From: Thermoplasmatales archaeon | GTDB lineage: Archaea > Thermoplasmatota > Thermoplasmata > Methanomassiliicoccales > Methanomethylophilaceae | Direction: 5' to 3' | Assembly (NCBI GenBank): GCA_012515075.1 | Contig: JAAYZC010000010.1 | Span: forward strand, 1 to 35,843 | Length of the DNA: 35,843 nt | Part shown: one piece after another, positions 3,135 through 35,843 of the stretch | How the letters are laid out: every line of letters begins with the position of its first letter | Position numbering within the stretch: the stretch's first letter is position 1 | Program-made: the position numbers and the translations under genes | The notes under the pieces: generated by a model | Databases searched by the model: none | Seen by the model: only the letters and a program-made list of their open reading frames with translations | Told to the model about the DNA's origin: nothing

Positions 3135-4642
3135 ATCATCACCCCCGAGATGAATCCCTGCGAGAACGTCTGGATCACTCCGAGGGCCAGATCAGGCCAG
3201 AGACCAAACAGCGCAATGAGTGCGCACACGACTCCGAGGGCCAGTCCTTCGGACAGGCTCACATCGTGAACGTGAGCGACGTCTATCTTATCGGTCTCCT
3301 TCCCGAAAAGCGTCCTCTGCATGGCCCAGATGTAGTATCCGGATGTCAGCAGAAGCGACAGCAGGCAGAAGATTATCAGCCATATCATGTCGATGGACAC
3401 GGTGTACTCGTAGAACGAGAATATTACGCCGAACTCACCCCAGAACCCGACCAGTCCAGGCAGACCCAGGGATGCCATGAACCCGAACATCATGAACGCC
3501 GAATATATCGGCATCTTAGCCGCGAGTCCTCCGAGGAGAGGGATCTCCCTCGTACCGGCGTTGTGACCGGTAAGGCCGCATACCATGAAGAGGACCGTGG
3601 TTATGAGTCCGTGGGCGAACATCTGGAATATGGCGAAAGTGACCCCTGCATCGGAAAGGCATCCGATACCGAGAAGCACCATGCCCATGTGGCTTATGGA
3701 GGAGAACGCGACCATCTTCTTGAGATCGGTCTGCGCTATGCATGCGAAAGCTCCGTAGACTATGGAGAGCAGGGCAATCAGTATCACGATCGGCTGCCAC
3801 CAGACGGCCCCCTCGGGGAGCACCTCCAGACAGACTCTTATGATACCATAGGAACCCATCTTCAGCATGACGGCGGCCAGAATGACGGACCCTCCGGTGG
3901 GTGCCTCGACGTGCGCGTCGGGTAGCCATGTATGGAAGGGCACTATCGGCATCTTGACCGCGAATCCGAAGAAGAGCAGCCCGAACACCAGGATCTGGAA
4001 CGTTGTGCCGAACAGCGGGGACGCCGCGGCGACAGCAGCGAACGAGAAGTCCGCGAGGTATCCTCCTCCGGTGATCGCGGCGGCGTTGAACGCCAGCGCG
4101 AATATCCCGATTAGCATGACCAGGCTCGCCACATGGGTGTATATGAAGAACTTGATCGCCGCGTAATGCCTTCTGGGGCCTCCGTACCAGGAGATCATGA
4201 AGTACATGGGCACGAGCGTAAGCTCCCACATGATGTAGAACAGGAAGTAATCCTGCGCCATGTAAACTCCCAGCAGTCCGACCTCCATAGCGAGGATCAG
4301 GGTGTGGAAGTAGTTGGGCCTGTCCTTCTCAGCCGCGGAGAACAGTATCACCAGGAAAACCGTCACCGAGGTGAGGAACACCATCAGCATGCTGAGGCCG
4401 TCTACACCCAGAGCGAAGGACATCTTCAACCCGGCGGTGTCAATCCATCCGTAGCATTCGTCGTAGAACGAGAGGTCGTTGGCGAAGAACAGCAACAGGG
4501 ACAGCAGCGCGGTTATACCCGCGAATGCCCCGGCCACGTATTTCGCCGATTTCGCCCTCTCGCCGCCCATGAAGAGCGTCGCTATGGCCCCTATGAAGGG
4601 AAGCACGAGCAGTATCGTCAGAAGCGGAATCTGCACTTCCAT
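3131..4642 (-). CDS. fpoM: F420H2 dehydrogenase-like subunit FpoM (NuoM homologue)
   Basis: A 503-residue membrane protein of the NuoM antiporter-like family with about 14 transmembrane helices. Diagnostic stretches are YIMWELTLVPMYFMISWYGG (the conserved Glu of helix 5), VKMPIVPFHTWLPDAHVEAP, GGSVILAAVMLKMGSYGI and DLKKMVAFSSISHMG, which hold the channel lysines and histidines. It forms one of three parallel proton-translocating modules in the membrane arm. It starts 1 nt after the fpoL stop and overlaps fpoN by 4 nt. Length and motif spacing are standard. Confidence 0.95.
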   Translation of the reverse strand: MEVQIPLLTILLVLPFIGAIATLFMGGERAKSAKYVAGAFAGITALLSLLLFFANDLSFYDECYGWIDTAGLKMSFALGVDGLSMLMVFLTSVTVFLVILFSAAEKDRPNYFHTLILAMEVGLLGVYMAQDYFLFYIMWELTLVPMYFMISWYGGPRRHYAAIKFFIYTHVASLVMLIGIFALAFNAAAITGGGYLADFSFAAVAAASPLFGTTFQILVFGLLFFGFAVKMPIVPFHTWLPDAHVEAPTGGSVILAAVMLKMGSYGIIRVCLEVLPEGAVWWQPIVILIALLSIVYGAFACIAQTDLKKMVAFSSISHMGMVLLGIGCLSDAGVTFAIFQMFAHGLITTVLFMVCGLTGHNAGTREIPLLGGLAAKMPIYSAFMMFGFMASLGLPGLVGFWGEFGVIFSFYEYTVSIDMIWLIIFCLLSLLLTSGYYIWAMQRTLFGKETDKIDVAHVHDVSLSEGLALGVVCALIALFGLWPDLALGVIQTFSQGFISGVMI

Positions 4643-4643
4643 C

Positions 4644-6704
4644 TCAGATGCCTCCCATGAAGTAGAAGAGGGCCACGGCGATCACCGCTAGGATGATCGT
4701 TCCGCCCACGACTACGCCCGCATAGGAGTGGAGGTTACCGGTCTGAGCTCTGCTCAGCACCTCCCCTCCCCCTACCACGGAGCTCGAAAGGCCGTTCACT
4801 GTTCCGTCTATTATCTGTTTATCTATGAAATCCACTCCGCATGCGGTCCCGTATCCGAGCTTCAGCGAAAGCTGGTCGTAGAATTCGGGGAACCACCATC
4901 TGTTGGCGAAGAGCCTGTAGATGAAGGACTGGCCCTCCTTGTTGAACCTGCCGGGGTTGAGCGTCTTCTTGTTGTACATGAGATAGGCCACATATATGCC
5001 GAGCAGAGCCAGCAATATGGTGACATATGTGTACACGTTGGTGAAGATGTGCTCAAGGTAGTACATCGCATCGTGCCCGTGTCCGTTGCCGACGATGAAC
5101 TTGGTGCCGTCGAACCCTATGCAGACGGTGTCTCCGAAACCGAAGAGTATCAGGAGGCCCGATGCGGCCGCGAACACGGACAGTATCATCAGTGGCAGGG
5201 TCATGGTCCTGGGCGATTCTCCGTGGCAGTGCTTGGCCGCGTGCCCCTCCTCGCCGTGGAAGGTCATGTACCACATGCGGAACATGTAGAAGGCGGTCAT
5301 CAGGGCCGTGATCACAGCGAGCGTCCACAGTATGACGAACACCCAGCCCACCGGCTCTGTGAAGGCATCCATTACGGATTCGAGAATCAGGTCCTTGGAC
5401 CAGAATCCGCTCAGCAGGGGGAATCCTGCTATAGACAGGGATCCGATCAGCATCGTCTTGGAGGTTATGGGCATGTGTTTGGCCAGGCCGCCCATCTGCC
5501 TCATGTCCTCCGTGCCCACTGCATGTATGACCGAACCCGAACCAAGGAACAGCAGTGCCTTGAAGAACGCGTGGTTCATCATGTGCAGACATGCCGCCAC
5601 GTATCCGGCGGCGCCTGCAGCTATGAGCGCGGGGTCCCCGTGCTTTATTCCGATGGCCATGACGTACCCTCCGGCACCCAGGCCGAGGATCATGTATCCC
5701 AGCTGGGAGAGGGTGGAGAACGCCAGAACCTTCTTTATGTTCATGTTGTTGAGAGCCATCGTGGCCGCTATGAAGGCTGTCACGCCTCCGATGACCGCCA
5801 CGAACAGCATCACGTATTCGACCTGCACGAACAGGGGGAAAGCCCTTGCCGTGAGGTACACTCCTGCCTTGACCATCGTGGCCGCGTGTATGAGGGCGGA
5901 GACGGTGGTGGGGCCGGCCATTGCGTCCGGAAGCCAATCGTGCAGGGGGAACTGTGCGCTCTTCCCTATGACACCTCCGAACACCAGTAGCATCGCGAGA
6001 GCGATCATGTTGGAATCCACGGCCGCGATGTTGTTTACATCGAACAGCACCGTGTAGTCCAGGCTCTGGAATGCGTAGAGCAGGACGAACAGACCCCCCA
6101 TGAGGGACACGTCGCCCAGGCGGGTGACCAGGAAGGCCTTCTTCGCGGCGGAGGCCGCGTTGATCGAGGCCGCATCCCCCTCAGGGTGCTTGAAGCTCCA
6201 GAATCCGATTAGCAGATACGAACAGAGTCCCATGATCTCCCAGAAGATGAACATCTCCAGGAAGTTGCTGGAAACCACGAGCCCGAGCATTCCGCTCAGG
6301 AACAGGGAGACCTCTGCGTAGTACCTCCTCTTCTTGTTACCCTCGTGGCTCATGTATCCCACCGAGTAAATGAATATCAGCAGGGATATGAACGACGAGA
6401 ACAGCATCATCATGCATGCGAGGCTGTCAATGTAGACTCCCACATTCATGACGAAGCTGCCGGTCGTGGACGTGAACGCGAACCACTCCATGCTCGCCAC
6501 ATAGGGCACGCCGGAAGCGAACGCCGCGCTTGTCCAGTACTCATAAGAGACAAGGACGGCTATCAGGGTGGAGACCGCCGCGCCGGCGATCGCCAGATAA
6601 CCTCCGCCCTCGTGCATTTTCGTCCCGAAGAAACCGATTATGACGAAGCAGAGAAGCGGTATCAGCGGGATAAGCCATGAGAATTCTATGAACACCTTTA
6701 CCAC
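4644..6704 (-). CDS. fpoL: F420H2 dehydrogenase-like subunit FpoL (NuoL homologue with lateral helix)
   Basis: A 686-residue NuoL-type membrane protein, the distal proton-pumping subunit. The antiporter core is seen in FWEIMGLCSYLLIGFW, KSAQFPLHDWLPDAMAGPT, STLSQLGYMILGLG and AFFKALLFLGSGSVIHA. The C-terminal extension (about residues 550-686) matches the long lateral helix and final transmembrane segment of NuoL. The open frame begins at GTG 6704, overlapping the fpoK stop by 7 nt. A second GTG at 6695 has GAGGTGG just upstream and may be the true start, giving a protein 3 residues shorter. Confidence 0.94.
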   Translation of the reverse strand: MVKVFIEFSWLIPLIPLLCFVIIGFFGTKMHEGGGYLAIAGAAVSTLIAVLVSYEYWTSAAFASGVPYVASMEWFAFTSTTGSFVMNVGVYIDSLACMMMLFSSFISLLIFIYSVGYMSHEGNKKRRYYAEVSLFLSGMLGLVVSSNFLEMFIFWEIMGLCSYLLIGFWSFKHPEGDAASINAASAAKKAFLVTRLGDVSLMGGLFVLLYAFQSLDYTVLFDVNNIAAVDSNMIALAMLLVFGGVIGKSAQFPLHDWLPDAMAGPTTVSALIHAATMVKAGVYLTARAFPLFVQVEYVMLFVAVIGGVTAFIAATMALNNMNIKKVLAFSTLSQLGYMILGLGAGGYVMAIGIKHGDPALIAAGAAGYVAACLHMMNHAFFKALLFLGSGSVIHAVGTEDMRQMGGLAKHMPITSKTMLIGSLSIAGFPLLSGFWSKDLILESVMDAFTEPVGWVFVILWTLAVITALMTAFYMFRMWYMTFHGEEGHAAKHCHGESPRTMTLPLMILSVFAAASGLLILFGFGDTVCIGFDGTKFIVGNGHGHDAMYYLEHIFTNVYTYVTILLALLGIYVAYLMYNKKTLNPGRFNKEGQSFIYRLFANRWWFPEFYDQLSLKLGYGTACGVDFIDKQIIDGTVNGLSSSVVGGGEVLSRAQTGNLHSYAGVVVGGTIILAVIAVALFYFMGGI

Positions 6705-7000
6705 CTCATAGTCGTTAGCTCGTCAACGTCAGTAGTCTTCTTCGACTTGTATGCGTTGAGAAGAATGGCTATTCCTACGGCCACCTCCGCCGCTGCGACG
6801 ACGATCGTCATCATGACGAAGGTCTGCCCCAGCACGTCGCCGTTGTATGCGGCGAATGCCACGAAGTTTATGTTGGCCGCGTTGAGCATGAGCTCGATGC
6901 ACATGAGTATCACGATGGCGTTGGTCTTCGTGAGCACGCCGTAAGCGCCTATCGCGAAGAGTATGCCGCCGAATATCAGGAAGAACTCAATCGGAATCAT
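6698..7000 (-). CDS. fpoK: F420H2 dehydrogenase-like subunit FpoK (NuoK homologue)
   Basis: A 100-residue protein with three transmembrane helices and the NuoK signature: ILMCIELMLNAANINFVAF, with the membrane-embedded Glu used in proton translocation, and a second Glu in VVAAAEVAVGIAILL. I chose ATG 7000 because AGGAGG lies 9 nt upstream. The in-frame ATG at 7009 abuts that ribosome site with no spacer. The resulting length equals the usual NuoK length of about 100. The start overlaps the end of the second fpoJ gene by 14 nt. Confidence 0.93.
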   Translation of the reverse strand: MIPIEFFLIFGGILFAIGAYGVLTKTNAIVILMCIELMLNAANINFVAFAAYNGDVLGQTFVMMTIVVAAAEVAVGIAILLNAYKSKKTTDVDELTTMRW

Positions 7001-7268
7001 CGTACTCATCCTCCTCTCTAGCTATGCATACGCCGCCCACAATCGCCCCGAACATCAGGATCGACAGAACGAGCAGCAGGGGCCCGTAATCCTCGAAGAC
7101 AGAGTAGTTGAGGCTGTTCTCGGACAGCACACCGTCCTCTCCGGGAGCGAAGGGTATGCCGACGGGCTCGTCGTAGGCTGTGTCCCACTGGGTGGCAAAT
7201 ACGCCCGCCCCGATGACGACAAGCAGCGTCATGGCCAGACCTGCGCCGATCAGTACCTTCTTGTTCAT
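6987..7268 (-). CDS. fpoJ: F420H2 dehydrogenase-like subunit FpoJ, C-terminal half
   Basis: A 93-residue protein with two transmembrane helices (about residues 5-26 and 62-82), corresponding to the C-terminal part of NuoJ. The last helix, GPLLLVLSILMFGAIVGGV, matches the conserved NuoJ ending, and the tail is acidic. The ATG overlaps the TGA of the N-terminal half (ATGA). In Methanosarcina the operon is also written fpoABCDHIJJKLMNO, with J as two adjacent genes. The split is therefore an ancestral trait and not a recent frameshift. Confidence 0.88.
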   Translation of the reverse strand: MNKKVLIGAGLAMTLLVVIGAGVFATQWDTAYDEPVGIPFAPGEDGVLSENSLNYSVFEDYGPLLLVLSILMFGAIVGGVCIAREEDEYDDSD

Positions 7269-7600
7269 TTAAGCTCACACTCCTTCACGGAGGCCTTTAT
7301 CTTTCTCCTAGTCAGCATTATGCTGAACGCGAACAGTATGGTTATGGCACCGACATACACGAGCATCTGTATCACGCCGATGAACTCCGCCTCCAGGAAG
7401 AAGTACGTTACAGCGACGCACACGAACACCAGAGCCAGATAGAACGCGCTGTGGATGACCTCTGGATCTACCACAACGTGTATGGCCGCAGCGATAGCTA
7501 TGGCCGCCAATATGACGAATGCCAGCATATCGGGGTTGTCCCATACGAATCCGGCGAAGCTGCATATGCCGTCCCATATATCATTGATGAAGCTCATCAT
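7265..7600 (-). CDS. fpoJ: F420H2 dehydrogenase-like subunit FpoJ, N-terminal half
   Basis: A 111-residue membrane protein covering the first three helices of NuoJ. It has the conserved stretches DPEVIHSAFYLALVFV and AEFIGVIQMLVYVGAITIL, the latter containing the pi-bulge helix region (YVGAI) that couples quinone-site events to proton pumping in complex I. ATG 7600 overlaps the fpoI stop (ATGA), and an adjacent ATG at 7597 is an equivalent alternative. It overlaps the C-terminal half by 4 nt, implying coupled translation of the two halves. Confidence 0.9.
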   Translation of the reverse strand: MMSFINDIWDGICSFAGFVWDNPDMLAFVILAAIAIAAAIHVVVDPEVIHSAFYLALVFVCVAVTYFFLEAEFIGVIQMLVYVGAITILFAFSIMLTRRKIKASVKECELK

Positions 7601-8337
7601 AGCACCTCTTTGATGTGGAGACAGCTCTTGGGGCAGTCGTCCACGCAATTCTTGCAGCAGATACATTTGTCGGTGTCAATCCTGGGGATCTTCTTGGGCT
7701 TCCCCTTCTCGTTGACGCCGGCCTCGTACATCTCGATGGCTCCTACCGGACACACCTTGAAGCACTTCTGGCATCCTATGCACTTGGCCTCCTCCAGCAC
7801 CGGTCTGTCCACTTCGAAGGCGGAAGTCGGCTGATCGAGTATCCCTTTCTGCACGTTGGATATCAGATGTTCCTCGATGTGGACCTCCATCATCTCGTTG
7901 ACTCCCTCGAACCTGAGTCTGCGGGGGCCGTATATCAGGTCCTCCCTCGTGTACTCTGCCAATTCTATCTCGGGGGTAACGGTCATCGCGTCGACCGGGC
8001 AGTACTCTGCGCAGTAGCCGCACATCATGCACCTTCCCAGGTTGACCTGCGGTCTCTTGACCTTCTTGCCCTCGTCGTCAGTAGTCTCCACGAGGCATAT
8101 GCATGCAGTGGGGCACATCCTGGCGCAAAGCCCGCATCCGACGCACTTGTCGAACTGCAGGCCCGGGCGTCCGCGGTAGTTGTCAGGGATCCACTCCTTC
8201 TCGTAAGGGTACATTATAGTCATGGATCTCCTGGGTATGACCTTGGCGAAGAGCTTCATGACGGTCCACATGGGCTTCACGACCCACAGGCCCTTGGCTG
8301 TGTCCTTCGGATACTTATCCAGATATTTCATTGCCAT
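7597..8337 (-). CDS. fpoI: F420H2 dehydrogenase-like subunit FpoI with an extra C-terminal dicluster ferredoxin domain
   Basis: A 246-residue NuoI-type iron-sulfur subunit. The N-terminal half is standard: an amphipathic start, then clusters at C65, C68, C71, C75 and C103, C106, C109, C113, corresponding to N6a and N6b of complex I, and the NuoI-typical stretch AEYTREDLIYG. Usual FpoI/NuoI proteins end soon after this. Here about 100 further residues carry a second ferredoxin unit with C186, C189, C192, C196 and C225, C228, C231, C235, giving four 4Fe-4S motifs in all. The frame is continuous and no stop or frameshift is visible. The start ATG 8337 overlaps the fpoH stop (TGATG). The added domain is a candidate entry point for electrons from ferredoxin or another donor in a complex that lacks FpoF (inference). 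Confidence 0.93.
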   Translation of the reverse strand: MAMKYLDKYPKDTAKGLWVVKPMWTVMKLFAKVIPRRSMTIMYPYEKEWIPDNYRGRPGLQFDKCVGCGLCARMCPTACICLVETTDDEGKKVKRPQVNLGRCMMCGYCAEYCPVDAMTVTPEIELAEYTREDLIYGPRRLRFEGVNEMMEVHIEEHLISNVQKGILDQPTSAFEVDRPVLEEAKCIGCQKCFKVCPVGAIEMYEAGVNEKGKPKKIPRIDTDKCICCKNCVDDCPKSCLHIKEVL

Positions 8338-9509
8338 CAGAACACACCTCCGAACTTGAGCAGCACGACAATCAACAGGTTGATTACCGCCAGCGGGGTG
8401 AATATCTTCCATCCTATGTTCAGGATCTGATCGGTCCTGACACGTGCGAGTGTGGCCCTTACCCAGATCATCATGAAGAACATGAGCCACGTCTTAAGCA
8501 GGAAAACGATCTCGGGCATGGCGTTGTTTAGGTCGCCTATTCCCGGGAGCATCCATCCTCCGAAGTACAGTATGACTCCCATCGCGCATGCGACGTAGCC
8601 TCTGAAGTAGTCGGCCAGCATGATGAGGCCCCACTTCATTCCGGCGTACTCGGTCTGCCATCCCTCGACGAGCTCGGCCTCGGCCTCGGCCAGGTCGAAC
8701 GGGACCCTTTCGGACTCCGCTATGGAGCACCAGAAGAAGGTGATCATACCGATTACCTGGGGTATGAAGTACCACACGGTGTCGTACTGGGCATGGACGA
8801 TGTCGCTTATGTTGAAGCTTCCGGCCATGAGTATTACGGTGCCGATGAGGATGAGCATCGGTATCTCGTAGGATATCATCAGCTCGGCGGCCCTCATCCC
8901 TCCGATGAGGGAGTACTTGTTGTTCTGAGCCCATCCGGAAACCAATATGAAGAAGGGCGCCAGGGCGAACAGGGCCATGATTATGAGGAGGCCGGTGTCG
9001 TAGCTCACCACGAACCATCTGTCGGACAGAGGGATCATACAGGCTATCAGCACGGAAGTGCCGATGACGAGGGACACCGTCCACATATACGTCATCTTGT
9101 CTACTTTCTTGGGAACGACGTTCTCCTTCATGAAGGTCTTCAGACCGTCGGCCACGCACTGCAGGAATCCTTTCAGACCCACCTGCGTACCGCGTCTGTC
9201 CATCATCCTTCCGAGGACCTTGCGCTCCTCCCATAGCGAAAGCAGCGTGCCCACGAAGACCACCAAGAAGATGATCAGCATGAACAACAGCAGGGCGAAT
9301 ACGTTGACCACCTGGTCCGATATCAGCCAGGTAGAGACGACGTTGCCCGGGAACAGGAGGTTTATCAGCCAGGCCACCAGGCCGCCGAGGAACTCCCATA
9401 TCTTGTAGGCCCAGTCATAGGGCAGGTTGTACAGATCCCCGAACGGGTAGAACGGGTTATCCATGGGGTTGTGGAACGTTATCCACTCCAAAATACTGCT
9501 GTATGACAT
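8337..9509 (-). CDS. fpoH: F420H2 dehydrogenase-like subunit FpoH (NuoH homologue)
   Basis: A 390-residue membrane subunit that forms the quinone/methanophenazine chamber at the junction of the two arms. The family marks are EERKVLGRMMDRRG near residue 95 and the acidic loop ESERVPFDLAEAEAELVEGW, followed by GGMRAAELMISYEIPM-type segments and about eight core helices. The ATG at 9509 lies 4 nt after the fpoD stop. About 95 residues precede ERKVLG, compared with about 40 in typical NuoH, so there is an N-terminal extension with at least one additional hydrophobic segment (about residues 40-55). The usual IGPNR motif reads RRGTQVG. Confidence 0.94.
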   Translation of the reverse strand: MSYSSILEWITFHNPMDNPFYPFGDLYNLPYDWAYKIWEFLGGLVAWLINLLFPGNVVSTWLISDQVVNVFALLLFMLIIFLVVFVGTLLSLWEERKVLGRMMDRRGTQVGLKGFLQCVADGLKTFMKENVVPKKVDKMTYMWTVSLVIGTSVLIACMIPLSDRWFVVSYDTGLLIIMALFALAPFFILVSGWAQNNKYSLIGGMRAAELMISYEIPMLILIGTVILMAGSFNISDIVHAQYDTVWYFIPQVIGMITFFWCSIAESERVPFDLAEAEAELVEGWQTEYAGMKWGLIMLADYFRGYVACAMGVILYFGGWMLPGIGDLNNAMPEIVFLLKTWLMFFMMIWVRATLARVRTDQILNIGWKIFTPLAVINLLIVVLLKFGGVF

Positions 9510-9513
9510 GGTC

Positions 9514-10647
9514 TCACCTGTCGGTCTCCCCAAGGCACATGTCGACCATGGCCATGACTGCCGGCACATCGGCTATCCTGCATCCCTGAACCATAGGCTT
9601 GGCTGCGGAAACGTTCACGAATATCGGGGAGCGCACCTTGAGCCTGTATGGCTTGTCCGTCCCATCCGATATGAGATACATCAGGCTCTCCCCGCGCGGG
9701 TCCTCGAGCCTGGCGAAATGGGTCCCCTCTGGGACCGCGGAAGGCACCTTGAGCCTGTAGGGCGCGGATCTTGGCATGTCCTGTATCTTCTTCATCGCCT
9801 GACGGATTATCTCGCAGCTCTGGAACATCTCCTCGATCCTTACCATGTACCTGGCGTACGTGTCGCCTTCCTTCAGCACAGGAACCTCGAAATCCATCTC
9901 ATCGTATCCGTCGTAAGGATCGTCGCGGCGTATGTCGAAATCTACTCCGCAGCCTCTCATCGCGGGTCCGGTGACTCCGAGGTTGGCGACCTGCTCCCTC
10001 GTCAGACGGGATATCCCCTGCATCCTGGATACGAACACGGAGGAATCGTCAACCAGGGCTATGATGTCCCACAGGCGCTTCTCGAAGCGCTCCACGCACC
10101 TCATGCAGTCCCTGTCGAAGTATTCGGTGGTGTCGTTCCTGACTCCGCCGATGCGGGGGTAGTTGGTGGTCATCCTCGCTCCGCAGAGCCTGACGTTGAG
10201 GTCCAGGAAGAACTCCCTCTCCCTCATCGCCCAGAGGAAGACGGTCAGGTTTCCAAGGTCGGTACCGACGGCCGCCAGCCACATCAGGTGGGATTGTATG
10301 CGGCATATCTCGTCGGCGACTATCCTAAGGTACTTCGCCTTGTCGGGTATATCGACGTCCAGGGCCTTCTCCACCGTCATGCAGTATATGTGCGACCATG
10401 TCATGGAGGCCGAATAGCACAGACGGTCGGCCATGGGGATGATCTTGGGATAGGTCCGGTTCTCGCATTCCTTCTCCCAGCCGCGGTGGAGGTAACCTAT
10501 GATGGGTTCCGCATCCGTGACTATCTCCCCGTCGACCTCGACCTTCAAGGTCCAGAGACCATGGGAGAACGGGTGCTGGGGACCCATTATTACAGTCATC
10601 CTGTCGGTGTTCATACTGTCAAGTTTTATTTCGGGTTCCGGCATCAT
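9514..10647 (-). CDS. fpoD: F420H2 dehydrogenase-like subunit FpoD (NuoD, 49-kDa homologue)
   Basis: A 377-residue hydrophilic subunit of the NuoD / NiFe-hydrogenase large-subunit family. It shows MGPQHPFSHG at the start, then EPIIGYLHRGWEK, GDTYARYMVRIEEMFQS and the family ending IADVPAVMAMVDMCLGETDR. The hydrogenase Ni-binding cysteines are absent, as expected for the complex I lineage, so it helps form the electron-acceptor binding pocket. The long upstream open frame is not coding: the start ATG 10647 overlaps the fpoC stop (ATGA) and gives the usual length. Confidence 0.95.
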   Translation of the reverse strand: MMPEPEIKLDSMNTDRMTVIMGPQHPFSHGLWTLKVEVDGEIVTDAEPIIGYLHRGWEKECENRTYPKIIPMADRLCYSASMTWSHIYCMTVEKALDVDIPDKAKYLRIVADEICRIQSHLMWLAAVGTDLGNLTVFLWAMREREFFLDLNVRLCGARMTTNYPRIGGVRNDTTEYFDRDCMRCVERFEKRLWDIIALVDDSSVFVSRMQGISRLTREQVANLGVTGPAMRGCGVDFDIRRDDPYDGYDEMDFEVPVLKEGDTYARYMVRIEEMFQSCEIIRQAMKKIQDMPRSAPYRLKVPSAVPEGTHFARLEDPRGESLMYLISDGTDKPYRLKVRSPIFVNVSAAKPMVQGCRIADVPAVMAMVDMCLGETDR

Positions 10648-11111
10648 TCCTGCCCCCTGAGCTTGTAAGATTTCCTGAAGGGGTAGAACTCGTAGTTGCT
10701 CGGTGTGAGCAGCCTCTCGAGCTTCGGATGGCCCTCGAACACGATGCCGAAGAGCTCGTAAGCCTCCCTCTCGTGCCAGTTGGCCCCTCCCCATATGGAG
10801 GCGACTGATGCTATACGGGGATCGTCCGAGGGGACGTCCGACGTGATCTCGATCATCACTCCGTTTTCGTAGTTGGAAAGGTGGTATACCACCTGGAAGG
10901 TGGACTCCCTGTCGACTCCGGATAAGGAGCTGCAGTGCTCGAAGTTGAGATTGTCGTGTATGAACGTGCAAAGCTCGAATATCGAATCCCTGTCCGCCGT
11001 GGCGTAGACCCTGCGGGCCTCTGTCCTTGTCACCTGTAGCGAAGGGAACTCCTTCACGAGGATGCTCTCGATCTCGCTGACAGTAGGTGCCTGATAAACA
11101 TCTCCGGGCAT
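10644..11111 (-). CDS. fpoC: F420H2 dehydrogenase-like subunit FpoC (NuoC, 30-kDa homologue)
   Basis: A 155-residue hydrophilic subunit of the NuoC family. The signature is ASIWGGANWHEREAYELFGI followed by FEGHPKLERLLTP and a C-terminal FRKSYKLRGQ. It is a structural partner of FpoD in the connecting arm. ATG 11111 lies just downstream of the fpoB stop and gives the standard length. The end overlaps fpoD by 4 nt. Confidence 0.94.
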   Translation of the reverse strand: MPGDVYQAPTVSEIESILVKEFPSLQVTRTEARRVYATADRDSIFELCTFIHDNLNFEHCSSLSGVDRESTFQVVYHLSNYENGVMIEITSDVPSDDPRIASVASIWGGANWHEREAYELFGIVFEGHPKLERLLTPSNYEFYPFRKSYKLRGQE

Positions 11112-11113
11112 TT

Positions 11114-11677
11114 TCAGTCCTCCAGGAAAACCCCTCTCTTGAAGTAGTCCTCTATCTTCTTCTGAAGCAGCATGAAACCGTCGATCATCGCGTCGGGTTT
11201 CACCGGACATCCGGGTATGTATAGGTCGACGGGAACAATCTGGTCCAGTCCCTGGACGATGTTGTAGGAGTCGTACCAGGGTCCGCCGGATATGGCGCAC
11301 TCGCCCATCGCCACAACCCACTTGGGGTTGGGTATCTGCTCATAGAGGCGCCTTAGGTCCGGGCGGATCTTCTTCGAGATCCATCCGTTGACCAGGAGTA
11401 TGTCCGTCTGTCTCGGGGAAGAGCGGTAGATCATACCGTAGCGCTCGGCATCGTGCTTGGGTGCGGATGCGGCGGCCATCTCCAGGGCGCAGCAGGCGAG
11501 CCCCCAGTGCAGAGGGTGCATGGAGTTCTTCATAGCCCAGGACCAGACAGGTCCGGTGAGCTTGTCCACGGTCCTCTTCGTACCGGAGCTCAGCATGTCG
11601 TTGATCATCGCGGATGACCAAGACATGAATTCATCAGCACTCATTGCAACAGCGTGAGGGTAGAGACTCATATCCAT
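11114..11677 (-). CDS. fpoB: F420H2 dehydrogenase-like subunit FpoB (NuoB, PSST homologue)
   Basis: A 187-residue subunit that ligates the terminal 4Fe-4S cluster (N2 equivalent), the last redox centre before methanophenazine. The ligands are visible as the tandem cysteines of HWGLACCALEMA, the Cys of AMGECAISGGPW and the Cys of YIPGCPVKPDA. The start ATG 11677 overlaps the end of fpoA by 10 nt and follows AGGAGG; a second in-frame ATG at 11671 is possible. The long N-terminal extension of the open frame runs inside fpoA and is not coding. Confidence 0.95.
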   Translation of the reverse strand: MDMSLYPHAVAMSADEFMSWSSAMINDMLSSGTKRTVDKLTGPVWSWAMKNSMHPLHWGLACCALEMAAASAPKHDAERYGMIYRSSPRQTDILLVNGWISKKIRPDLRRLYEQIPNPKWVVAMGECAISGGPWYDSYNIVQGLDQIVPVDLYIPGCPVKPDAMIDGFMLLQKKIEDYFKRGVFLED

Positions 11678-12030
11678 ATGCTTTCCTCCTTTTTCAGAGC
11701 ATATGTCACGCCCAGAAGAAGAACTCCCAAGAAGATCAACATCCACATCTGCGCCGAAGGCGACAGGTTGGAGAATGCAACGGCCCATATCATCATGAAC
11801 GTCGTGACCAGGTCGAAGACTACGAAGATTATTGCAAAAGCGTAGTATTGGAACCTGAACTGCACATGCGCATCGCCTATGGGTTCGGAACCGCATTCAT
11901 ATGTTGTCTCCATCCAGTGAGTAGGTTTCCTGGGCCTGATAAATCTCGATGCCCACCACGCCAGGGGTGCGAAACCAAGGGCAATAATGCCCACGAACAC
12001 CAGCGGCATGTAACTCGCTATTAGTGACAT
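11668..12030 (-). CDS. fpoA: F420H2 dehydrogenase-like subunit FpoA (NuoA homologue), first gene of the fpo operon
   Basis: A 120-residue membrane protein with three helices and the NuoA loop motif TTYECGSEPIGDAHVQFRFQYYAFAIIFVVFD, quoted here only in part as YECGSEPIGDA and QFRFQYY. It starts the 12-gene cluster. No Shine-Dalgarno sequence precedes ATG 12030, but a TATA box about 26 bp upstream (12051-12060) places the transcription start at or next to the A of the ATG, so the operon mRNA is probably leaderless. Confidence 0.94.
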   Translation of the reverse strand: MSLIASYMPLVFVGIIALGFAPLAWWASRFIRPRKPTHWMETTYECGSEPIGDAHVQFRFQYYAFAIIFVVFDLVTTFMMIWAVAFSNLSPSAQMWMLIFLGVLLLGVTYALKKEESIWI

Positions 12031-21369: not shown

Positions 21370-22887
21370 TCACTCCCTCACGGATACCGAGGTGAACTTC
21401 TTGATCAGCATCCCCTCGATCTGCAGCGGCTGCAGTCTCACCGCGATGTCACGGGCCCTCTGCGCCTTGGACTCCACTTCGGCGTATATCTGGAAGAGGA
21501 CATCGCCCCTCTCCACCCGCTGGCCCTTCTTCCTGAGCAGCAGTATGCCTGCGCCCTTGTCCGAGGGAGAGCCCGCCGCCCTTGCGATGGACACCAGATC
21601 CTTGTTGTTCACCGAATGCACGTATCCCGCCTTGGTCGAGAAGACCTCCACCATGTGCTTACCGGGTTCCAGGTCCTCGGACTTTATATCGTAGTTGCCT
21701 CCCTGGGCGGCCACGATCTCCCTGAACTTCTTCATGGCCGCACCGGATTCGAGAATCCTCCTGGCCTCCGCGGAGCCGTTGGGTATCCCGCCCATCTCCA
21801 GTATTATGCCGGCGAGGTCGCAGGATTTCTCCACCACGCTTGAGGGGTGTTTCTGGCCCTCGAGGATGCGTATGCATTCCCTGGCCTCCAGCTTCGGGCC
21901 TATGGCGTTGCCCACCGGCTGGTCCGCATAGGTTATGGCGCATTCGACGTGGATCCCGAGCCTTTCGCCGATGTCCATGAAGTCCCTGGCGTAGCCCTTT
22001 GCCTCGTCTATGGTCTTGACCTTCGTTCCGGTTCCGGTAGGTATGTCCACGAGAAGATGCGTGGCGCTTATGGCCATCTTCTTGGACATTATGGATGCGA
22101 TCATCTGGGCCCGGGGGTTTATACCGAGCGGGTACTCGACCTTTATCACCATGTCGTCGACCGGGGCCAGGTTCATGGAGCCTCCCCAGGCCAGCACCCC
22201 TCCGGTCTCCTCCGCGATGCTCTTCAGCGTGTTGGCGTCCAGCTCCACGTCGCAGAACGTCTCCACGAAGTCGGACGTTCCGCAGGCGCTGCTGATCGCG
22301 CGCGAGGATGTCTTGGGGAGCATGAGGCCCGCGGCCGCCACGATCGAGACCACGATGGGCGTGACCTTGTTGCCGGGGACGCCCCCTATGCTGTGGAAGT
22401 CGAAGACCGGGGACCTGTCGAATATGACCCTGTCCCCGGTGTCGACCATGGCCTGGGTGAAATACGCTATCTCCTCGGAATCCATGCCGTTGATGTAGAG
22501 GGAGGTCAGCCAGGCGGATATCTCTATCTTGGCCAGCTTCCCGTCCCTTATGTCGAAGACGATATTGCGTATCTCCTCCTTGCTGAGCTTCTCGCCGTCC
22601 ATCTTCTTCCTTATGCCCCTGACCGAGTCGGGCTTCGCGGAGTAGACCACGTTGACCTCGTCACCGCAGGCCGCGCCCAGCGAATCGATGAGGGAATCGG
22701 GCATCTTCACCTCCCCCCTCTCGACAAGGGTGTCGGAGCGGTTCACCAGGGCCGTGGCCGATCTGGCGGGCCCGTCGATGCGCACCCGGTCATTCTCCTT
22801 GACCCCTAGCTCTATGCAGTCGTCGTCGTGCAGGAGCACGATGGGCTCCGATGCGTCTATGTCCAGATGCGATATTCTCAGCTTCAT
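21370..22887 (-). CDS. deoA: AMP phosphorylase (archaeal nucleoside phosphorylase-family DeoA)
   Basis: A 505-residue enzyme that phosphorolyses AMP (also CMP and UMP) to the base plus ribose-1,5-bisphosphate. The first about 90 residues form the extra N-terminal domain typical of archaeal AMP phosphorylases. The pyrimidine-phosphorylase core follows: FHSIGGVPGNKVTPI at 164-178, PKTSSRAISSACGTSDFVET at 191-210, SMNLAPVDDM and DIPTGTGTKVKT. The C-terminal PYNP domain ends near the stop. ATG 22887 overlaps the rbcL stop (ATGA) and gives the normal length. The open frame runs on far upstream, but that part is the antisense frame of rbcL. It is the first enzyme of the AMP pathway, with the other two just upstream. 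Confidence 0.95.
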   Translation of the reverse strand: MKLRISHLDIDASEPIVLLHDDDCIELGVKENDRVRIDGPARSATALVNRSDTLVERGEVKMPDSLIDSLGAACGDEVNVVYSAKPDSVRGIRKKMDGEKLSKEEIRNIVFDIRDGKLAKIEISAWLTSLYINGMDSEEIAYFTQAMVDTGDRVIFDRSPVFDFHSIGGVPGNKVTPIVVSIVAAAGLMLPKTSSRAISSACGTSDFVETFCDVELDANTLKSIAEETGGVLAWGGSMNLAPVDDMVIKVEYPLGINPRAQMIASIMSKKMAISATHLLVDIPTGTGTKVKTIDEAKGYARDFMDIGERLGIHVECAITYADQPVGNAIGPKLEARECIRILEGQKHPSSVVEKSCDLAGIILEMGGIPNGSAEARRILESGAAMKKFREIVAAQGGNYDIKSEDLEPGKHMVEVFSTKAGYVHSVNNKDLVSIARAAGSPSDKGAGILLLRKKGQRVERGDVLFQIYAEVESKAQRARDIAVRLQPLQIEGMLIKKFTSVSVRE

Positions 22888-24125
22888 TTTATTCCCCACT
22901 TGTCCAGAGCCTCCCTGAGCTCCCGGTGATCCTCGGCGTAATCCCGGACGTGTACACCCAGGAAAGCGGCGTCGACGGCTTGGCACATGCCCCTGGCCCC
23001 CGACCTTACTCCTCCGGGGTGACCCGCCACGCCGCCTCCGGCCTGGATCTGCACGTTCATCCCTGATTCTTCTATCATCCTGCCCACCATGCCGGGATAG
23101 ACTCCTCCCGAACACACGGGCATTACCGTAGCATACGGGGATCCGCCGTCCAGACATGCTTCCAGACTGTCGTGGTCCCCTTTGCCTCCAGACATCTTTC
23201 CTACGCCGAGGGTGCCGATGTGAAGGGCGTCGCCCCCGCACATGCGGACGAGCCTTGTTATTGCGAGCATTGATATCCCGTGCAGGGGGTCCCTGGTTAT
23301 CGCCCCGTGCATGGTCCTGTGCACATGGATGGGGACCTTGATGGAAGGATCCTCTGCCAGGGCCTGAACGGCCGCGAAACCGCAGGTTATGACATCCACC
23401 ATTATCTGCTTGGCTCCCCAGGACTGGACCTTTTCCGCGAGCTCCAGGATCCTGTGGCCGCCGGTGCTTATGTTCACCGCGTGCACCATGCGGTGGCCCT
23501 CCTCCTTCAGCCTGTCCAGTGATTCCGCCACGGCCTTGGTGCGGTCTTCTATGGGGCAGAACCTCTGATCGACCAGGGTCTCGTCGTCCTTGCTGTTGGT
23601 CAGACCTCCCGCCCCGGCCTCGTACACGTACTCCGCCGTGTCCTCGGGCGATAGGCCGATCTTCGGTTTCACGATCGTTCCCACTAGGGGCTTCTCTGGA
23701 CGGCCCAGTATCCTCCTGAGGCCTTCGGCCCCGAACCTCGGCCCCGAGAACTGCTCCTGTATGCAGCTCGGGAAGCGCACATCCTCGAGCCTCAGCTTGC
23801 CTATGGACTCCAGTCCGAACAGGTTCCCGGCTATCACGCTGAGTATCTGGGGCACGCCGCCCACGTCGATGCTGAAATCCTCGGCCGGGTAGGCCACCTC
23901 GACCAGGTCCCCTTCGATCCTGGTCACTCTGGCCCCGTATCTCTCGAACACGTCGTCTCTGAGCGTGGAAATGCCTGTCCAGGTGCCCGTGGACTGTTCG
24001 GCGGCTATGGCCGAAGCCGCATTCTCCATGGGCATGTCCGTGGTCACTCTGTACTCGCACACCACGTATCCTTCGGGATCCGTGCTCTCATCCAGATGCA
24101 GATATGAATAGTCCTTCATCATCAT
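22884..24125 (-). CDS. rbcL: Form III ribulose-1,5-bisphosphate carboxylase/oxygenase, large subunit
   Basis: A 413-residue archaeal RuBisCO. Active-site features are present: VGTIVKPKIGLSP with Lys153, SKDDE at 178-182 with the carbamylated Lys179, HVHRTMHG at 267-274, loop 6 GVGKMSGG with Lys310, VCSGGVYPGMV at 337-347 and QAGGGVAGHPGG at 361-372. In this context it carboxylates RuBP from AMP breakdown to two 3-phosphoglycerates and does not run a Calvin cycle; no phosphoribulokinase is seen. Three tandem ATGs (24125, 24122, 24119) can start it. I used the first, which overlaps the isomerase stop (TGATG). Confidence 0.96.
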   Translation of the reverse strand: MMMKDYSYLHLDESTDPEGYVVCEYRVTTDMPMENAASAIAAEQSTGTWTGISTLRDDVFERYGARVTRIEGDLVEVAYPAEDFSIDVGGVPQILSVIAGNLFGLESIGKLRLEDVRFPSCIQEQFSGPRFGAEGLRRILGRPEKPLVGTIVKPKIGLSPEDTAEYVYEAGAGGLTNSKDDETLVDQRFCPIEDRTKAVAESLDRLKEEGHRMVHAVNISTGGHRILELAEKVQSWGAKQIMVDVITCGFAAVQALAEDPSIKVPIHVHRTMHGAITRDPLHGISMLAITRLVRMCGGDALHIGTLGVGKMSGGKGDHDSLEACLDGGSPYATVMPVCSGGVYPGMVGRMIEESGMNVQIQAGGGVAGHPGGVRSGARGMCQAVDAAFLGVHVRDYAEDHRELREALDKWGIK

Positions 24126-25054
24126 CACTCCGCCCGGAGGGCTCTCTCCCCGAGCATTCTCACCATCGTGCCGTAGACGGAACCCGGGGACATCATCCCC
24201 AGCTCCGTGATTATGGCATCTATGTATTCGGTGGGAGTCGAATCGAAGACCGGATTGAACACCTTGACTCCCTCCGGGATCTCCCCCTCCCTTACCATCT
24301 CCCCGCTGCCTCTCTCCTCGATCGTGACCATGTCGCCGAAGATGGTCATCGGCGAGAACTTGTATGTCTCGCTGCAGACGTAGAACTGCACCCTCGCCTC
24401 CTTGGCCGCCAGGGCCAGCTGCGAGGTGCCGATCTTGTTTATCAGCGCCCCGTGGGACGTTATCGTGTCCGCCCCGACGAAGACCGCGTCCACCCTCTTC
24501 ATCACCGTGCGGACCGCGCTGTCGATTATCAGCGTGGTGTCCACTCCCGCCTGGTGAAGGTCCCTCACGGTCAGCAGGCCCTGCCTCCACGGGCGGGACT
24601 CCGTGGCGAACACCTTGACGTCCTTGCCCTGGGAGTGCGCGGTCTTTATCACGCTCAGCGCCGCGCTGCTGTTGCAATGTGTCATCACGGTGTCGCCGTC
24701 CCGGATCCTCTTCGCTCCTATCCGGCCTATGGTCTCCACCGCTTCCAGGGACTGAGCCGAGAACCTCTCTGCGTTAGCTATCACCAGAGACGCTGCCTCT
24801 CCGGTGTCCCTGCACTCCTCCACACCCCTCACCGTGGCATGAAGCCCGTTCCACAGGGACACGGCCGTGGGCCTGGACTCCAGGAGCGTCCTCTTGGCCG
24901 AATCCAGATCCGAAAGGAACCTCTCCATGTCCGTCCCGCTGTACCTCCTGGCGAAATCGGCCAGGGCCATGGATCCGGCGCGGGCTATCTTTCCAGCCCC
25001 CCTTATGCTCATGTCCCTTATCGCAGCAGCCGTACCCTCGATATCATTCGACAC
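24125..25054 (-). CDS. e2b2: Ribose-1,5-bisphosphate isomerase (eIF2B alpha-like family)
   Basis: A 309-residue protein of the eIF-2B alpha/beta/delta superfamily that converts ribose-1,5-bisphosphate to ribulose-1,5-bisphosphate. It has IRGAGKIARAG at the phosphate-binding start, the catalytic Cys127 in MTHCNSSAAL, ESRPWRQGLLTVRDL, Asp196 in VFVGADTITSHGALINKIGT, and YVCSETYKFSP. The location between RNase III and form III RuBisCO, with a TGATG overlap to rbcL, identifies it as the AMP-pathway isomerase and not a translation factor or methylthioribose-phosphate isomerase. It begins 23 nt after the rnc stop. Confidence 0.93.
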   Translation of the reverse strand: MSNDIEGTAAAIRDMSIRGAGKIARAGSMALADFARRYSGTDMERFLSDLDSAKRTLLESRPTAVSLWNGLHATVRGVEECRDTGEAASLVIANAERFSAQSLEAVETIGRIGAKRIRDGDTVMTHCNSSAALSVIKTAHSQGKDVKVFATESRPWRQGLLTVRDLHQAGVDTTLIIDSAVRTVMKRVDAVFVGADTITSHGALINKIGTSQLALAAKEARVQFYVCSETYKFSPMTIFGDMVTIEERGSGEMVREGEIPEGVKVFNPVFDSTPTEYIDAIITELGMMSPGSVYGTMVRMLGERALRAE

Positions 25055-33019: not shown

Positions 33020-33862
33020 TCACTTACGGTCTCCCCCAGCATCCTGCCTCCTGCGCTCGGACCTGCTGAGTATGTCGGCGAACGGGCTCTCCGTCTTGGT
33101 GCCTGCCTCGGTGTCCGAGGTTACAGTGGTCGTCACTGTCTGGACCGTATTGCCGACCGGGCGCCCCCCTGTCGACGGCCTGGGCCCCTTGGCGACCGGC
33201 CCCTCATCCGTGTTGTTGGCGTTCACAGTCATCCTCTGGGAAGCTATACAGTCATCGAAGGATTTGAAACCTAGTGTCTTGTCGCGGTCGTAGAGGCTCA
33301 GGGACCTGGCCTTGGACCTCAGCGCTTCCCCTACGGCACCGGTGGCCATAAGCACGGCCGCCTCCTTGCGCGCCTGACCGGACATCACCCCTCCGACGAA
33401 ACCGAATGCGGCGGAAGTGCCCACCAGACCCAGTGCGACATCCGATGTCCCGGGGGTGTAGAACACCGAGAGCCAGGATGCGAGGTTGCTCAGCCATGCG
33501 TCCTGAGCGGCCAGCGCCTGGGATATGGCTGCAAGATCCATACCGGGGAACCCATAGCCCCCGTACCCGAAGACTGCGTAGGAGACGGCATATACGGACG
33601 CGACGGCCAGTCCCGAGCCCAGGGCCGCGAAGACCAATCCCCTCAGCGGGGTCCCTGCCTTCCTGCCCGCCACGTACCCGACCGTCATCGGACCCAGCAA
33701 GGGGATCCACCAGAGAACGACGGACAGGACGTACCCCAACAGCACAGAGGAGCGAATATCGTAAAGGGAATCCGACCCGTTACCGAAGGTATACCTTCCA
33801 AACCAAGATGCCGTGCGCTTAGCGCCAGCGCAGACTCTGTCCACGTAATCCTGCAAGTGCAT
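33020..33862 (-). CDS. Unrecognised membrane protein with disordered charged tail
   Basis: A protein of about 280 residues. Three hydrophobic segments are clear: VLLGYVLSVVLWWIPLLGP, GLVFAALGSGLAVASVYAV and VALGLVGTSAAFGFVGGVM, with GYVAGRKAG after the first, a pattern seen in several small archaeal membrane families. The last about 90 residues are polar (SFDDCIASQRMTVNANNTDEG through SRSERRRQDAGGDRK) and probably disordered in the cytoplasm. The start could be ATG 33862 or ATG 33877; a TATA box at 33909-33918 places the transcript start near 33888, so both fit. It lies downstream of the DUF998-like gene but has its own promoter. No function can be given. Confidence 0.7.
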   Translation of the reverse strand: MHLQDYVDRVCAGAKRTASWFGRYTFGNGSDSLYDIRSSVLLGYVLSVVLWWIPLLGPMTVGYVAGRKAGTPLRGLVFAALGSGLAVASVYAVSYAVFGYGGYGFPGMDLAAISQALAAQDAWLSNLASWLSVFYTPGTSDVALGLVGTSAAFGFVGGVMSGQARKEAAVLMATGAVGEALRSKARSLSLYDRDKTLGFKSFDDCIASQRMTVNANNTDEGPVAKGPRPSTGGRPVGNTVQTVTTTVTSDTEAGTKTESPFADILSRSERRRQDAGGDRK

Positions 33863-33972: not shown

Positions 33973-35208
33973 TCACTTCCTGCGTTTCTTGGATGCCGCC
34001 TTGGCGGCGCGGAGGTTCGCCTTCACCGCGGAGTTTATCTCCTCCGCCTGCACCTTACCGTCGCTGACAGCGGCCTCGTCGTACCTGAGGACCTTCCATC
34101 CCTCGGATTCCAGCATCCCGTCCTTTTCCCGGGGGGCATCTGCGGGCTCCACGAAAACCGCCACCTTGCCTTTGACGAATGCCACAGGTATCCTGTGCTC
34201 GCCGTAGTCCCTCCTGCATCTCAGACCCTTGTTCCAAGCCGCCCTTCTGACCAGCGCGCCGGGTGAATTGTCGGTGAAGAAGTCCTCTGCGGCAGAAGGG
34301 TTCGATTCTTCCCCGTGTATTTTGGCGAATGCCGGCAGGGGCGATCCAGCGACACCTTCCGAGGTATCTTCCTCCTGCTTCTCCGCCAGAGGAGCCACGA
34401 TGGTTTCCTCATCCGACGGACCGGGTTCTGTTGAGGGTTCGGCCGCCGGCAAGGATTCGGATGATGTTGGATCAGCCTTCTCCTCCTTTGGCAGGACCTG
34501 CACGGATGCCTCCTTCCCGGGGTTGCCCCCGTCCTGCTTGGGATCCTTCGGTTTCTCTTGGGCTCTTTCCTCGGAATCTCTCGCCTTCCCGCTTTCGGAC
34601 TCATGGCGTTTCTGCTTGGAGCGGCCGGCAGGGGCCGCCTTCCTGACGGGTGCGGCATCGGGGGCCAGGAACAGTGCGCCCTGGAACATCGCCCATATCG
34701 CCAGCACGAAGGCGAATGCCGCCCCCTTGAGAGCATCTGTGAACAGCACCAGGGCCAGTATGATGAGCAGGGCCCCCGATATGACAGCAAGGACGTAGGT
34801 CCTGTCGATGATCGAGCCGACGGTCTCGGCCAGGACCACCGCCGTGGCCACTCCGCAGAACATCAGGGAGATGCTGACGTTGAGGTCGCCCGCGCCCGCC
34901 GTTAAACCCAGGGCCACGAGAAGAGCTGCCGCGACCACCACCAGGAGCCCGCATACCTTATGCACCGCATTGACCTCGCGCAGGGAGAATCCCAGGCCGA
35001 ACAGAATTGCCAGGGCCCCCGATATTACGCAACCTGCAGTGTAGTAGGCCGCTGAACCCCCGATTGTGCCAAGCTCCGAAAGTCTGTTCACACCCAGGGT
35101 CCAGCCGCCTGCGCTGTTCATGGCAATGAGCAATAGGACCAGGAACACCAGGGCGGAAACCGCACCCATGGAGCCTAGAATCCCGGCGTGCTTCACGATC
35201 GATCCCAT
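33973..35208 (-). CDS. DUF998-like six-helix membrane protein with C-terminal degenerate restriction-endonuclease-like domain
   Basis: A 411-residue protein in three parts. Residues 8-182 form about six transmembrane helices of DUF998-like type (NRLSELGTIGGSAAYYTAG). Residues 185-305 are a low-complexity linker rich in Lys, Glu, Pro and Ser. Residues 317-400 resemble the Vsr/DUF559 PDDEXK nuclease fold: ALVRRAAWNKGLRCRRDYGE, VAFVKGKVAVFVEP and EGWKVLRYDEAAV. The catalytic Asp expected in the first core strand (PDIVF or VDF) is Ala here (IPVAF), and the FWH motif of Vsr is absent, so it is probably not a nuclease. The tail is basic (AAKAASKKRRK). A TATA box about 24 bp before ATG 35208 suggests a leaderless start. 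Function unknown; a membrane-tethered nucleic-acid-binding role is a guess. Confidence 0.75.
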   Translation of the reverse strand: MGSIVKHAGILGSMGAVSALVFLVLLLIAMNSAGGWTLGVNRLSELGTIGGSAAYYTAGCVISGALAILFGLGFSLREVNAVHKVCGLLVVVAAALLVALGLTAGAGDLNVSISLMFCGVATAVVLAETVGSIIDRTYVLAVISGALLIILALVLFTDALKGAAFAFVLAIWAMFQGALFLAPDAAPVRKAAPAGRSKQKRHESESGKARDSEERAQEKPKDPKQDGGNPGKEASVQVLPKEEKADPTSSESLPAAEPSTEPGPSDEETIVAPLAEKQEEDTSEGVAGSPLPAFAKIHGEESNPSAAEDFFTDNSPGALVRRAAWNKGLRCRRDYGEHRIPVAFVKGKVAVFVEPADAPREKDGMLESEGWKVLRYDEAAVSDGKVQAEEINSAVKANLRAAKAASKKRRK

Positions 35209-35449: not shown

Positions 35450-35843
35450 ATGAAGATGAAATTCGAATTCCTCGGCGGAGCCGACATCGTCGGCCGCATG
35501 GGGATGACCATGAAAGGCGACGGCAAGAACATGCTCGTCGAGTACGGACTGAGCCCAAACAAACCCCCGGAATACCCCCTTCCCGTCCCGGAAAAGGTGG
35601 ACCACATGTTCCTCACCCACAGTCACCTCGATCACTGCGGGATGGTGCCGCAGATATGCGGCAGGGACATGTGCGAGCTTTTCACTACACCCCTGTCCGC
35701 GGAGGTGAGCGAGATAATGATGTACGACAGCCTGAAGATAGCCAAGGCCGAGAACTTCCCCCAGCCCTACACAGGAGGGGACATAGAGAGGACCATGAAG
35801 AACGTGGTTCCACTGACATTCGGCGATACCATAGAGCTCGGCA
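35450..35843 (+). CDS. Truncated beta-CASP metallo-beta-lactamase ribonuclease (aCPSF2-like), N-terminal part
   Basis: The first 131 codons are in the window; the gene runs off the right edge. It begins with MKMKFEFLGGADIVGRMG, then LVEYGLSP, and the metal motif THSHLDHCG with H57, H59, D61 and H62 of the HxHxDH signature. There is no N-terminal KH domain, so it corresponds to the aCPSF2-type archaeal nucleases and not to aCPSF1 (FttA), which is the termination factor; an RNase J relative is the alternative. The expected beta-CASP domain lies beyond the edge. AGGAG ends 9 nt before ATG 35450, supporting this start over ATG 35443 in another frame; ATG 35456 is in frame as well. Confidence 0.85.
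   Translation, partial: MKMKFEFLGGADIVGRMGMTMKGDGKNMLVEYGLSPNKPPEYPLPVPEKVDHMFLTHSHLDHCGMVPQICGRDMCELFTTPLSAEVSEIMMYDSLKIAKAENFPQPYTGGDIERTMKNVVPLTFGDTIELG

Follow-up and report, generated by a model that had tools for sequence, protein, structure and literature searches.

Introduction

Elsewhere, HdrD has HdrE as its membrane partner. In the Methanomassiliicoccales, hdrD is listed for three genomes, and the same source gives no hdrE homologue in three genomes (PMC4153887). The wiring of HdrD to the membrane in this order, where no HdrE has been found, is unsettled in the available parts of the literature (PMC4153887; PMC6147122; PMC10658910). Reuse of a Vsr-like domain without catalysis is already known from the FASTK/RAP proteins: FASTKD4, which is Vsr-like, had no nuclease activity in the study concerned and binds the poly(A) tail of an mRNA (PMC11879112).

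Here a further reuse of the Vsr-like domain is described, one that occurs in archaea and on new carrier proteins and that involves a loop deletion and tandem amplification. The same dead Vsr-type domain is found on a membrane protein and on HdrD and is a family-wide module in Methanomethylophilaceae. The window, by which is meant the whole stretch of 35,843 nucleotides analysed, corresponds to contig C49 of a genome assembled into 61 contigs (988,185 bases, 78.55% complete) and contains one gene for such a membrane protein. A first-pass annotation of the window had recognised a membrane-anchored dead module, which is confirmed, but the module is not peculiar to this one gene, the annotation having missed that HdrD and tandem arrays carry the same domain.

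Architecture of the membrane carrier

The gene lies at 33973..35208 on the minus strand, starts with ATG and encodes a protein of 411 aa, in which the open reading frame (ORF) and an AlphaFold2 model delineate a DUF998-type membrane part with six transmembrane (TM) helices, a disordered linker and a dead Vsr-type C-terminal domain (CTD). The membrane part comprises residues 1-186 (34651..35208, minus strand). In the full-length model, built from a 22-sequence alignment with a mean pLDDT of 74.8, six long helices are predicted between residues 8 and 181 (8-32, 53-77, 81-102, 107-134, 138-157 and 159-181), in keeping with the six TM helices of DUF998 (PF06197). In Pfam the window protein scored 8.3 bits for DUF998, under the cut-off of 30, while one of nine other N-terminal parts of this carrier type scanned, that of orthologue L077, was over the cut-off with 32.4 bits, and the N-terminal part from the window matched a place in its own genome (E 5.3e-11) that scores 66.9 bits for DUF998. 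The predicted helices and these matches fit the DUF998-like six-helix domain proposed at first pass. When the full model was compared using VIA-align, the membrane part resembled generic helical bundles (TMEM45A, Z 12.0, 171 aligned, 3.8 A). When the 22 proteins are aligned, no invariant or 90% column holds a His, and so there are no conserved haem-ligand histidines like those of an HdrE-type cytochrome b anchor.

The acidic linker occupies residues 187-309 (34282..34650, minus strand), with a net charge of -16 in the 100 residues preceding the CTD. The model has pLDDT below 50 over nearly all of this stretch and becomes confident from about residue 316 to 410, such that the disordered linker of about 120 residues claimed earlier is upheld at some 123 residues. 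A short conserved motif, PKLKVMSSREAAAAR, occurs within the disordered linker of 16 of 53 non-HdrD ORFs (for example L012 1492-2955 and L148 1275-3077, both minus strand), whereas neither the window protein nor any of the 39 HdrD ORFs has it; a DFMSKLVSSKDA-type stretch resembling it is found in proteins of genus g4. This linker motif of TM-CTD proteins could be a second binding site.

Residues 311-409 (33982..34278, minus strand) form the CTD, a loop-deleted Vsr/PD-(D/E)XK fold according to Pfam matches, the model, fold matches and profile alignment. Modelled alone from 54 sequences with AlphaFold2, the CTD gave a pLDDT of 89.7 and a pTM of 0.78 with the secondary-structure order H-E-E-E-H-E-H. 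The best match among solved folds was 3hrl (NGO0050; Z 10.5, 88 aligned, 2.6 A), followed by I-Bth0305I (3r3p; Z 10.2, 86 aligned, 2.1 A), and the comparison with Vsr itself (1cw0; Z 8.3, 88 aligned, 2.8 A) likewise identified the Vsr-type PD-(D/E)XK fold. Structure prediction and fold comparison thereby agree with the C-terminal PDDEXK fold first suggested from the letters of the sequence. Foldseek placed 3r3p first (E 2.1e-3, TM 0.72) with nothing at E 0.001 or better, and a PDB profile search gave no match at E ≤ 10. Among the fold matches was the Toxoplasma mitoribosome chain 9g6k_L9 (Z 7.7, 91 aligned, 3.6 A), such chains being, we assume, RAP proteins; at E ≤ 1 the 54 CTD members matched 20 families, of which the RAP model is not one.

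In Pfam, 31 of 54 CTD copies, a set omitting 7 loci that duplicate others, matched DUF559 at E ≤ 1 (best 4.6e-5) and 27 matched Vsr (PF03852; best 5.2e-5), with the window CTD alone scoring 13.1 and 13.6 bits against DUF559 (PF04480), below the curated cut-off of 20.6. Methanomethylophilaceae genomes also encode Vsr-like proteins with PD and FWHG motifs (WHG in all eight read), and hhalign of the CTD profile with eight of these Vsr-like proteins gave 99.2% probability (E 1.3e-19, 30% identity, 73 columns). The profile and fold comparisons show the CTD to be a stripped-down relative of Vsr-type nucleases.

Loss of catalytic residues and the basic tail

In Vsr the catalytic His lies in a WHG motif on a loop that follows strand 3, and the alignments reveal that about 28 residues bearing this motif are deleted from the CTDs. 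The corresponding loop of Vsr grips the DNA. Profile alignment to the Vsr-like proteins and a column census place Pro341 (codon 34186..34188, minus strand; I-P-V-A-F) at the catalytic Asp position; the earlier statement that the Asp had become Ala was mistaken, this Ala sitting two residues further on. Over the 54 copies the Asp column reads Pro in 34, Thr in eight, Asp in four, Gln in four, Asn in two and His and Glu in one each, the four copies with Asp all coming from tandem arrays and also missing the His loop. At the active-site position that comes next, 52 of the 54 have F or Y, and the second acidic position is unconserved. As such no aligned copy retains the catalytic triad, the CTD itself being conserved in orthologues, and with the Asp lost from most copies and the WHG loop deleted the verdict of a dead nuclease stands. 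Judged by its aligned residues, the CTD is a catalytically dead PD-(D/E)XK/Vsr-type domain.

The net charge of the CTD core has a median of -2 and a range of -10 to +12 over 115 distinct copies, compared with -1 to +9 in the eight Vsr-like proteins. A charge of at least +5 was found in 11 of the 115, nine of these being from the tandem arrays of genus g9, which include strongly basic copies of +5 to +12. The CTD ends in a Lys/Arg-rich tail, residues 404-411 in the window (33976..33999, minus strand), and a census of 102 distinct CTD ORFs found at least five K/R within the last 12 residues in 97.

Distribution and carriers

The CTD profile was matched at E ≤ 0.001 in 88 of 102 Methanomethylophilaceae genomes, the window's own included. 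In four of the 88 (G093, G097, G098, and G105) the best match was weak (3e-8 to 8e-4), leaving 84; the match of G105, the one of these four that was read, is a Vsr-like protein (L137). In a 400-genome sample of the class, strong matches were confined to Methanomethylophilaceae with weak matches (E 1.8e-6 to 0.006) in nine genomes outside, and a pattern scan of a named collection of 84,980 species found 76 loci; the spread outside the family is taken from these two surveys, both of which distant relatives could escape. The matching records are titled Methanomethylophilaceae, Methanomassiliicoccaceae, Methanoplasma, Methanomethylophilus and similar, or Thermoplasmata, Euryarchaeota or archaeon.

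Once ORFs sharing identical last 90 residues were merged, 102 distinct CTD ORFs comprised 39 with HdrD (HdrD-CTD), 49 with at least four predicted TM segments (TM-CTD) and 14 that were unclear or cut, the TM class being assigned by hydropathy such that an Ala-rich ORF like L041 may be mislabelled. In the ORFs read the CTD is never a separate enzyme but a module at the C-terminus, present once or several times in succession. The window's own genome has two CTD places, one on the 6-TM protein and one on an HdrD-like reductase (L034) with CCG (4.2e-34) and Fer4 domains, to which HdrD in most genomes is about 60-75% identical. The best NCBIfam match of L034 was TfrB with 216 of 385 bits, below cut-off, and HdrD-like is the safe name for this carrier. 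No report of a CTD fusion to HdrD was found in the open-access literature searched, most subscription papers lying outside that search.

HdrD was without a CTD at all 16 loci fetched from genera g2, g4, g8, g10, g11, g13, and g14, indicating that the CTD is unnecessary for the reductase reaction. The 6-TM gene that G011 has at the corresponding position stops after 207 aa, none of the frames nearby encoding a CTD, and HdrD in that genome carries one, which together with the varying loci indicates that the CTD and the carrier genes are gained and lost separately.

In genus g9, seven of eight genomes have four to seven CTD matches in one open frame. The array is joined to HdrD in six of the g9 genomes with four to six copies each; in G008, G019, and G029 the HdrD part was read in the same ORF as the array, and in G074, G075, and G076 the HdrD and CTD matches share one open frame. 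The seven-copy frame of G073 starts near a contig end with no HdrD part visible, and in G064 a frame that runs into a contig end contains three copies. Arrays of six (L033 3213-6419, minus strand), five (L031 1002-4277, plus strand) and four (L032 259-3117, plus strand) tandem CTDs follow HdrD-like proteins, and in these three arrays the catalytic position of the last copies is still an Asp and a number of the copies are basic.

Gene neighbourhoods

The divergent neighbour of the window gene, at 35450..35843 on the plus strand and cut by the window end, is a beta-CASP (aCPSF-type) ribonuclease-like gene identified through its homologue L084 (TIGR03675, 2.3e-68, 231 bits, below the equivalog cut-off of 580). 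This neighbour is found at 46 of 49 TM-CTD loci (one without, two with too little DNA) and at none of 39 HdrD loci, 13 of them with too little DNA. Fourteen genomes were selected for having no TM-CTD gene beside it; all 14 had the beta-CASP gene too, and one of them (G014) has the CTD ORF L041 elsewhere. Downstream lies a gene for a membrane protein (4TM; 33020..33862, minus strand), whose start, to go by an inspection of homologues by eye, is probably the ATG of MHLQD rather than the upstream GTG of the ORF listing. Of 49 TM-CTD loci, 20 have a homologue of this gene immediately after TM-CTD (28 without, one with too little DNA), and nine of the 14 beta-CASP loci from the genomes chosen for no adjoining TM-CTD gene also have it. 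Neither Pfam (E ≤ 10) nor NCBIfam (E ≤ 0.1) yielded a match for the 4TM protein, which has a C-terminal stretch like SPFADILSRSE (compare L160, L167, and L172).

At HdrD-CTD loci a helicase-like gene of about 930 aa, called Lhr-type by eye, follows in 35 of 39 (two without, two with too little DNA). The same gene was present at 14 of 16 control loci with a CTD-less HdrD, directly after HdrD at 13, so that this gene order is uninformative about the CTD. Gene order was considered as evidence for a role in RNA metabolism and rejected, since both the helicase-like and the beta-CASP neighbours persist without the CTD. An HdrD-like gene directly before a helicase-like gene (as at L034 3-2792, minus strand) is in itself a strange partnership between an enzyme of energy metabolism and a helicase, and it occurs at most loci read, with or without the CTD. 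A defence role, raised at first pass, found no backing, in that four proteins scanned gave no PADLOC match at E ≤ 0.01 and the gene order is conserved.

Elsewhere in the window, both on the minus strand, ORFs that resemble, by eye, AMP phosphorylase, form III RuBisCO, and ribose-1,5-bisphosphate isomerase are clustered at 21370-25054, and what appears by eye to be an fpo-type complex I operon lies at 1659-12030, about 20 kb from the CTD gene.

Selection and co-occurrence of the carriers

In nine HdrD pairs the dN/dS of the CTD was 0.028-0.369 compared with 0.026-0.22 for the enzyme core, and in nine of eleven TM pairs, those in which it was computable, the CTD gave 0.041-0.204, dS being high or undefined for some pairs in these comparisons. 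Across the eleven TM pairs identity was 75-100% in the CTD and 35-99% in the membrane part taken by itself, the CTD value being higher in ten and equal in one; among pairs further apart, identity of the membrane part fell to 35-56% with the CTD still at 75-88%. The CTD is, on these sequence comparisons, under purifying selection, and the TM protein has evolved as if the membrane part were a loosely constrained anchor and the CTD the working end.

Among 45 good genomes, ten had both carriers, nine HdrD-CTD only, 18 TM-CTD only and six neither, with two (G064 and G072) excluded from the classes as unclear. The classes were assigned by hand with HdrD-CTD defined as both matches in one open frame, while also counting as HdrD-CTD G020 and G031 (HdrD and CTD adjacent in two frames) and G036 (HdrD a fragment at a contig end); in the TM-only class the locus was translated for 14 of 18 genomes, with G091, G100, G101, and G108 judged by ORF length and a separate place. 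Co-occurrence was not above chance in the 45 genomes (odds ratio 0.37, p 0.20, uncorrected for kinship), and was rejected as a general sign of pairing between HdrD and the TM protein. In the 11 genomes used with both carriers, the two CTDs of one genome were no more similar than across genera (0.56 and 0.55), giving no sign of co-evolution. A CTD tree (119 rows, 99 columns; 19 rows ungrouped, being three Vsr outgroup rows and 16 unclassified copies) has five label changes between carriers and only suggests exchange of CTDs between them, because it is poorly resolved, with 45 of 116 inner branches starred.

Possible functions of the C-terminal domain

A conserved, selected and family-restricted tail common to HdrD and a membrane protein provides a handle on how HdrD is wired in this order. 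We tentatively favour the CTD as a non-catalytic docking module for a partner common to both carriers, a reading to which we give somewhat less than an even chance. The flexible linker would allow the folded CTD, along with the basic tail, to reach and retain this cytoplasmic partner, most likely a protein assembly, with the 6-TM protein bringing this partner to the membrane, HdrD joining the same kind of assembly through its own CTD and tandem copies raising avidity. Because HdrE has not been found in this order, machinery near the Fpo-like membrane complex is a first guess at the partner. The near-neutral median charge of the core, together with the loop deletion, favours protein over DNA as ligand. 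Against docking are the 16 of 16 HdrD loci elsewhere without the CTD, the lack of excess carrier co-occurrence, the missing sign of co-evolution between the two CTDs of a genome, the RNA binding of the Vsr-like FASTKD4 and the 11 of 115 cores at +5 or above, which would suit nucleic acid; the often basic g9 array copies weigh docking slightly down and nucleic acid slightly up.

Binding of RNA (or DNA) without cutting, by the dead Vsr fold and the basic tail in the manner of FASTKD4, is the alternative to consider first, and we regard it as possible but on the unlikely side. On this view the membrane carrier would keep RNA at the membrane, and the HdrD fusion would moonlight as a regulator. The fold is that of nucleic-acid enzymes, the Lys/Arg-rich tail is kept in 97 of 102 ORFs with g9 array copies reaching +12, and a beta-CASP gene adjoins TM-CTD at 46 of 49 loci as a helicase-like gene follows HdrD-CTD at 35 of 39. 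This gene-order argument is weakened by the neighbour controls without the CTD, and the median core charge of -2 over 115 copies, the deleted WHG loop and the absence of a RAP match at E ≤ 1 also count against nucleic acid.

Unlikely, to our mind, is that the CTD would act as a lineage-specific assembly tag of methanogen energy metabolism, recruiting the terminal heterodisulfide reductase together with a membrane site into a single assembly and so supplying an HdrE-like attachment. A direct tether, with the CTD of HdrD pairing with that of the 6-TM protein and so attaching the reductase to the membrane in place of HdrE, is distinctly improbable. The same rare domain does occur on a soluble reductase and a membrane protein in the window's own genome and in ten of 45 good genomes, and no hdrE homologue is reported for three genomes (PMC4153887). 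Set against this, nine of 45 genomes have HdrD-CTD only and 18 have TM-CTD only, HdrD in G011 has a CTD where the 6-TM gene has none, and the CTDs within a genome show no particular similarity. In the window's own genome, which has both carriers, direct HdrD/6-TM pairing is possible; it is not general.

That the CTD is a neutral passenger tail without function could be read from its being missing in several genera, and is very improbable given dN/dS values of 0.03-0.37, a CTD no less identical than the membrane part in any of the 11 pairs and a basic tail kept in 97 of 102 ORFs. Least credible of all is a nuclease with a relocated active site, for which the intact fold and an Asp in the right column of four of 54 copies are outweighed by F or Y at the next active-site position in 52 of 54, the unconserved second acidic position and the deleted WHG loop.

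Comparison with known systems

At the 16 loci fetched from other lineages HdrD always lacks the CTD, whereas the carrier described here has an extra linker and one to six C-terminal CTDs. In the case of DUF998 (PF06197), the other ORFs that the N-terminal part matches mostly have a length of some 200 aa, and the window protein adds the long linker and the CTD. The nuclease structures 3hrl and 3r3p are the best fold matches and DUF559 is matched by 31 of 54 copies at E ≤ 1, but the acidic active-site residues are unconserved in the CTD. With Vsr (PF03852) the CTD shares fold and order, and 30% identity over 73 columns with Vsr-like proteins of the same archaeal family, but it mostly lacks the catalytic Asp, is without the loop of about 28 residues with WHG and is a C-terminal module rather than a separate enzyme. 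The RAP domain of FASTKD4 shares a Vsr-like fold at the C-terminus of a protein and a non-cutting use, but that protein is mitochondrial and has a positively charged cavity (PMC11879112), whereas the CTD core is mostly near neutral and without a RAP match at E ≤ 1. The CTD clearly exemplifies how the fold of a repair nuclease, once its active site is lost, can be put to new use as a module and be amplified in tandem, in parallel with the mitochondrial Vsr-like FASTK proteins.
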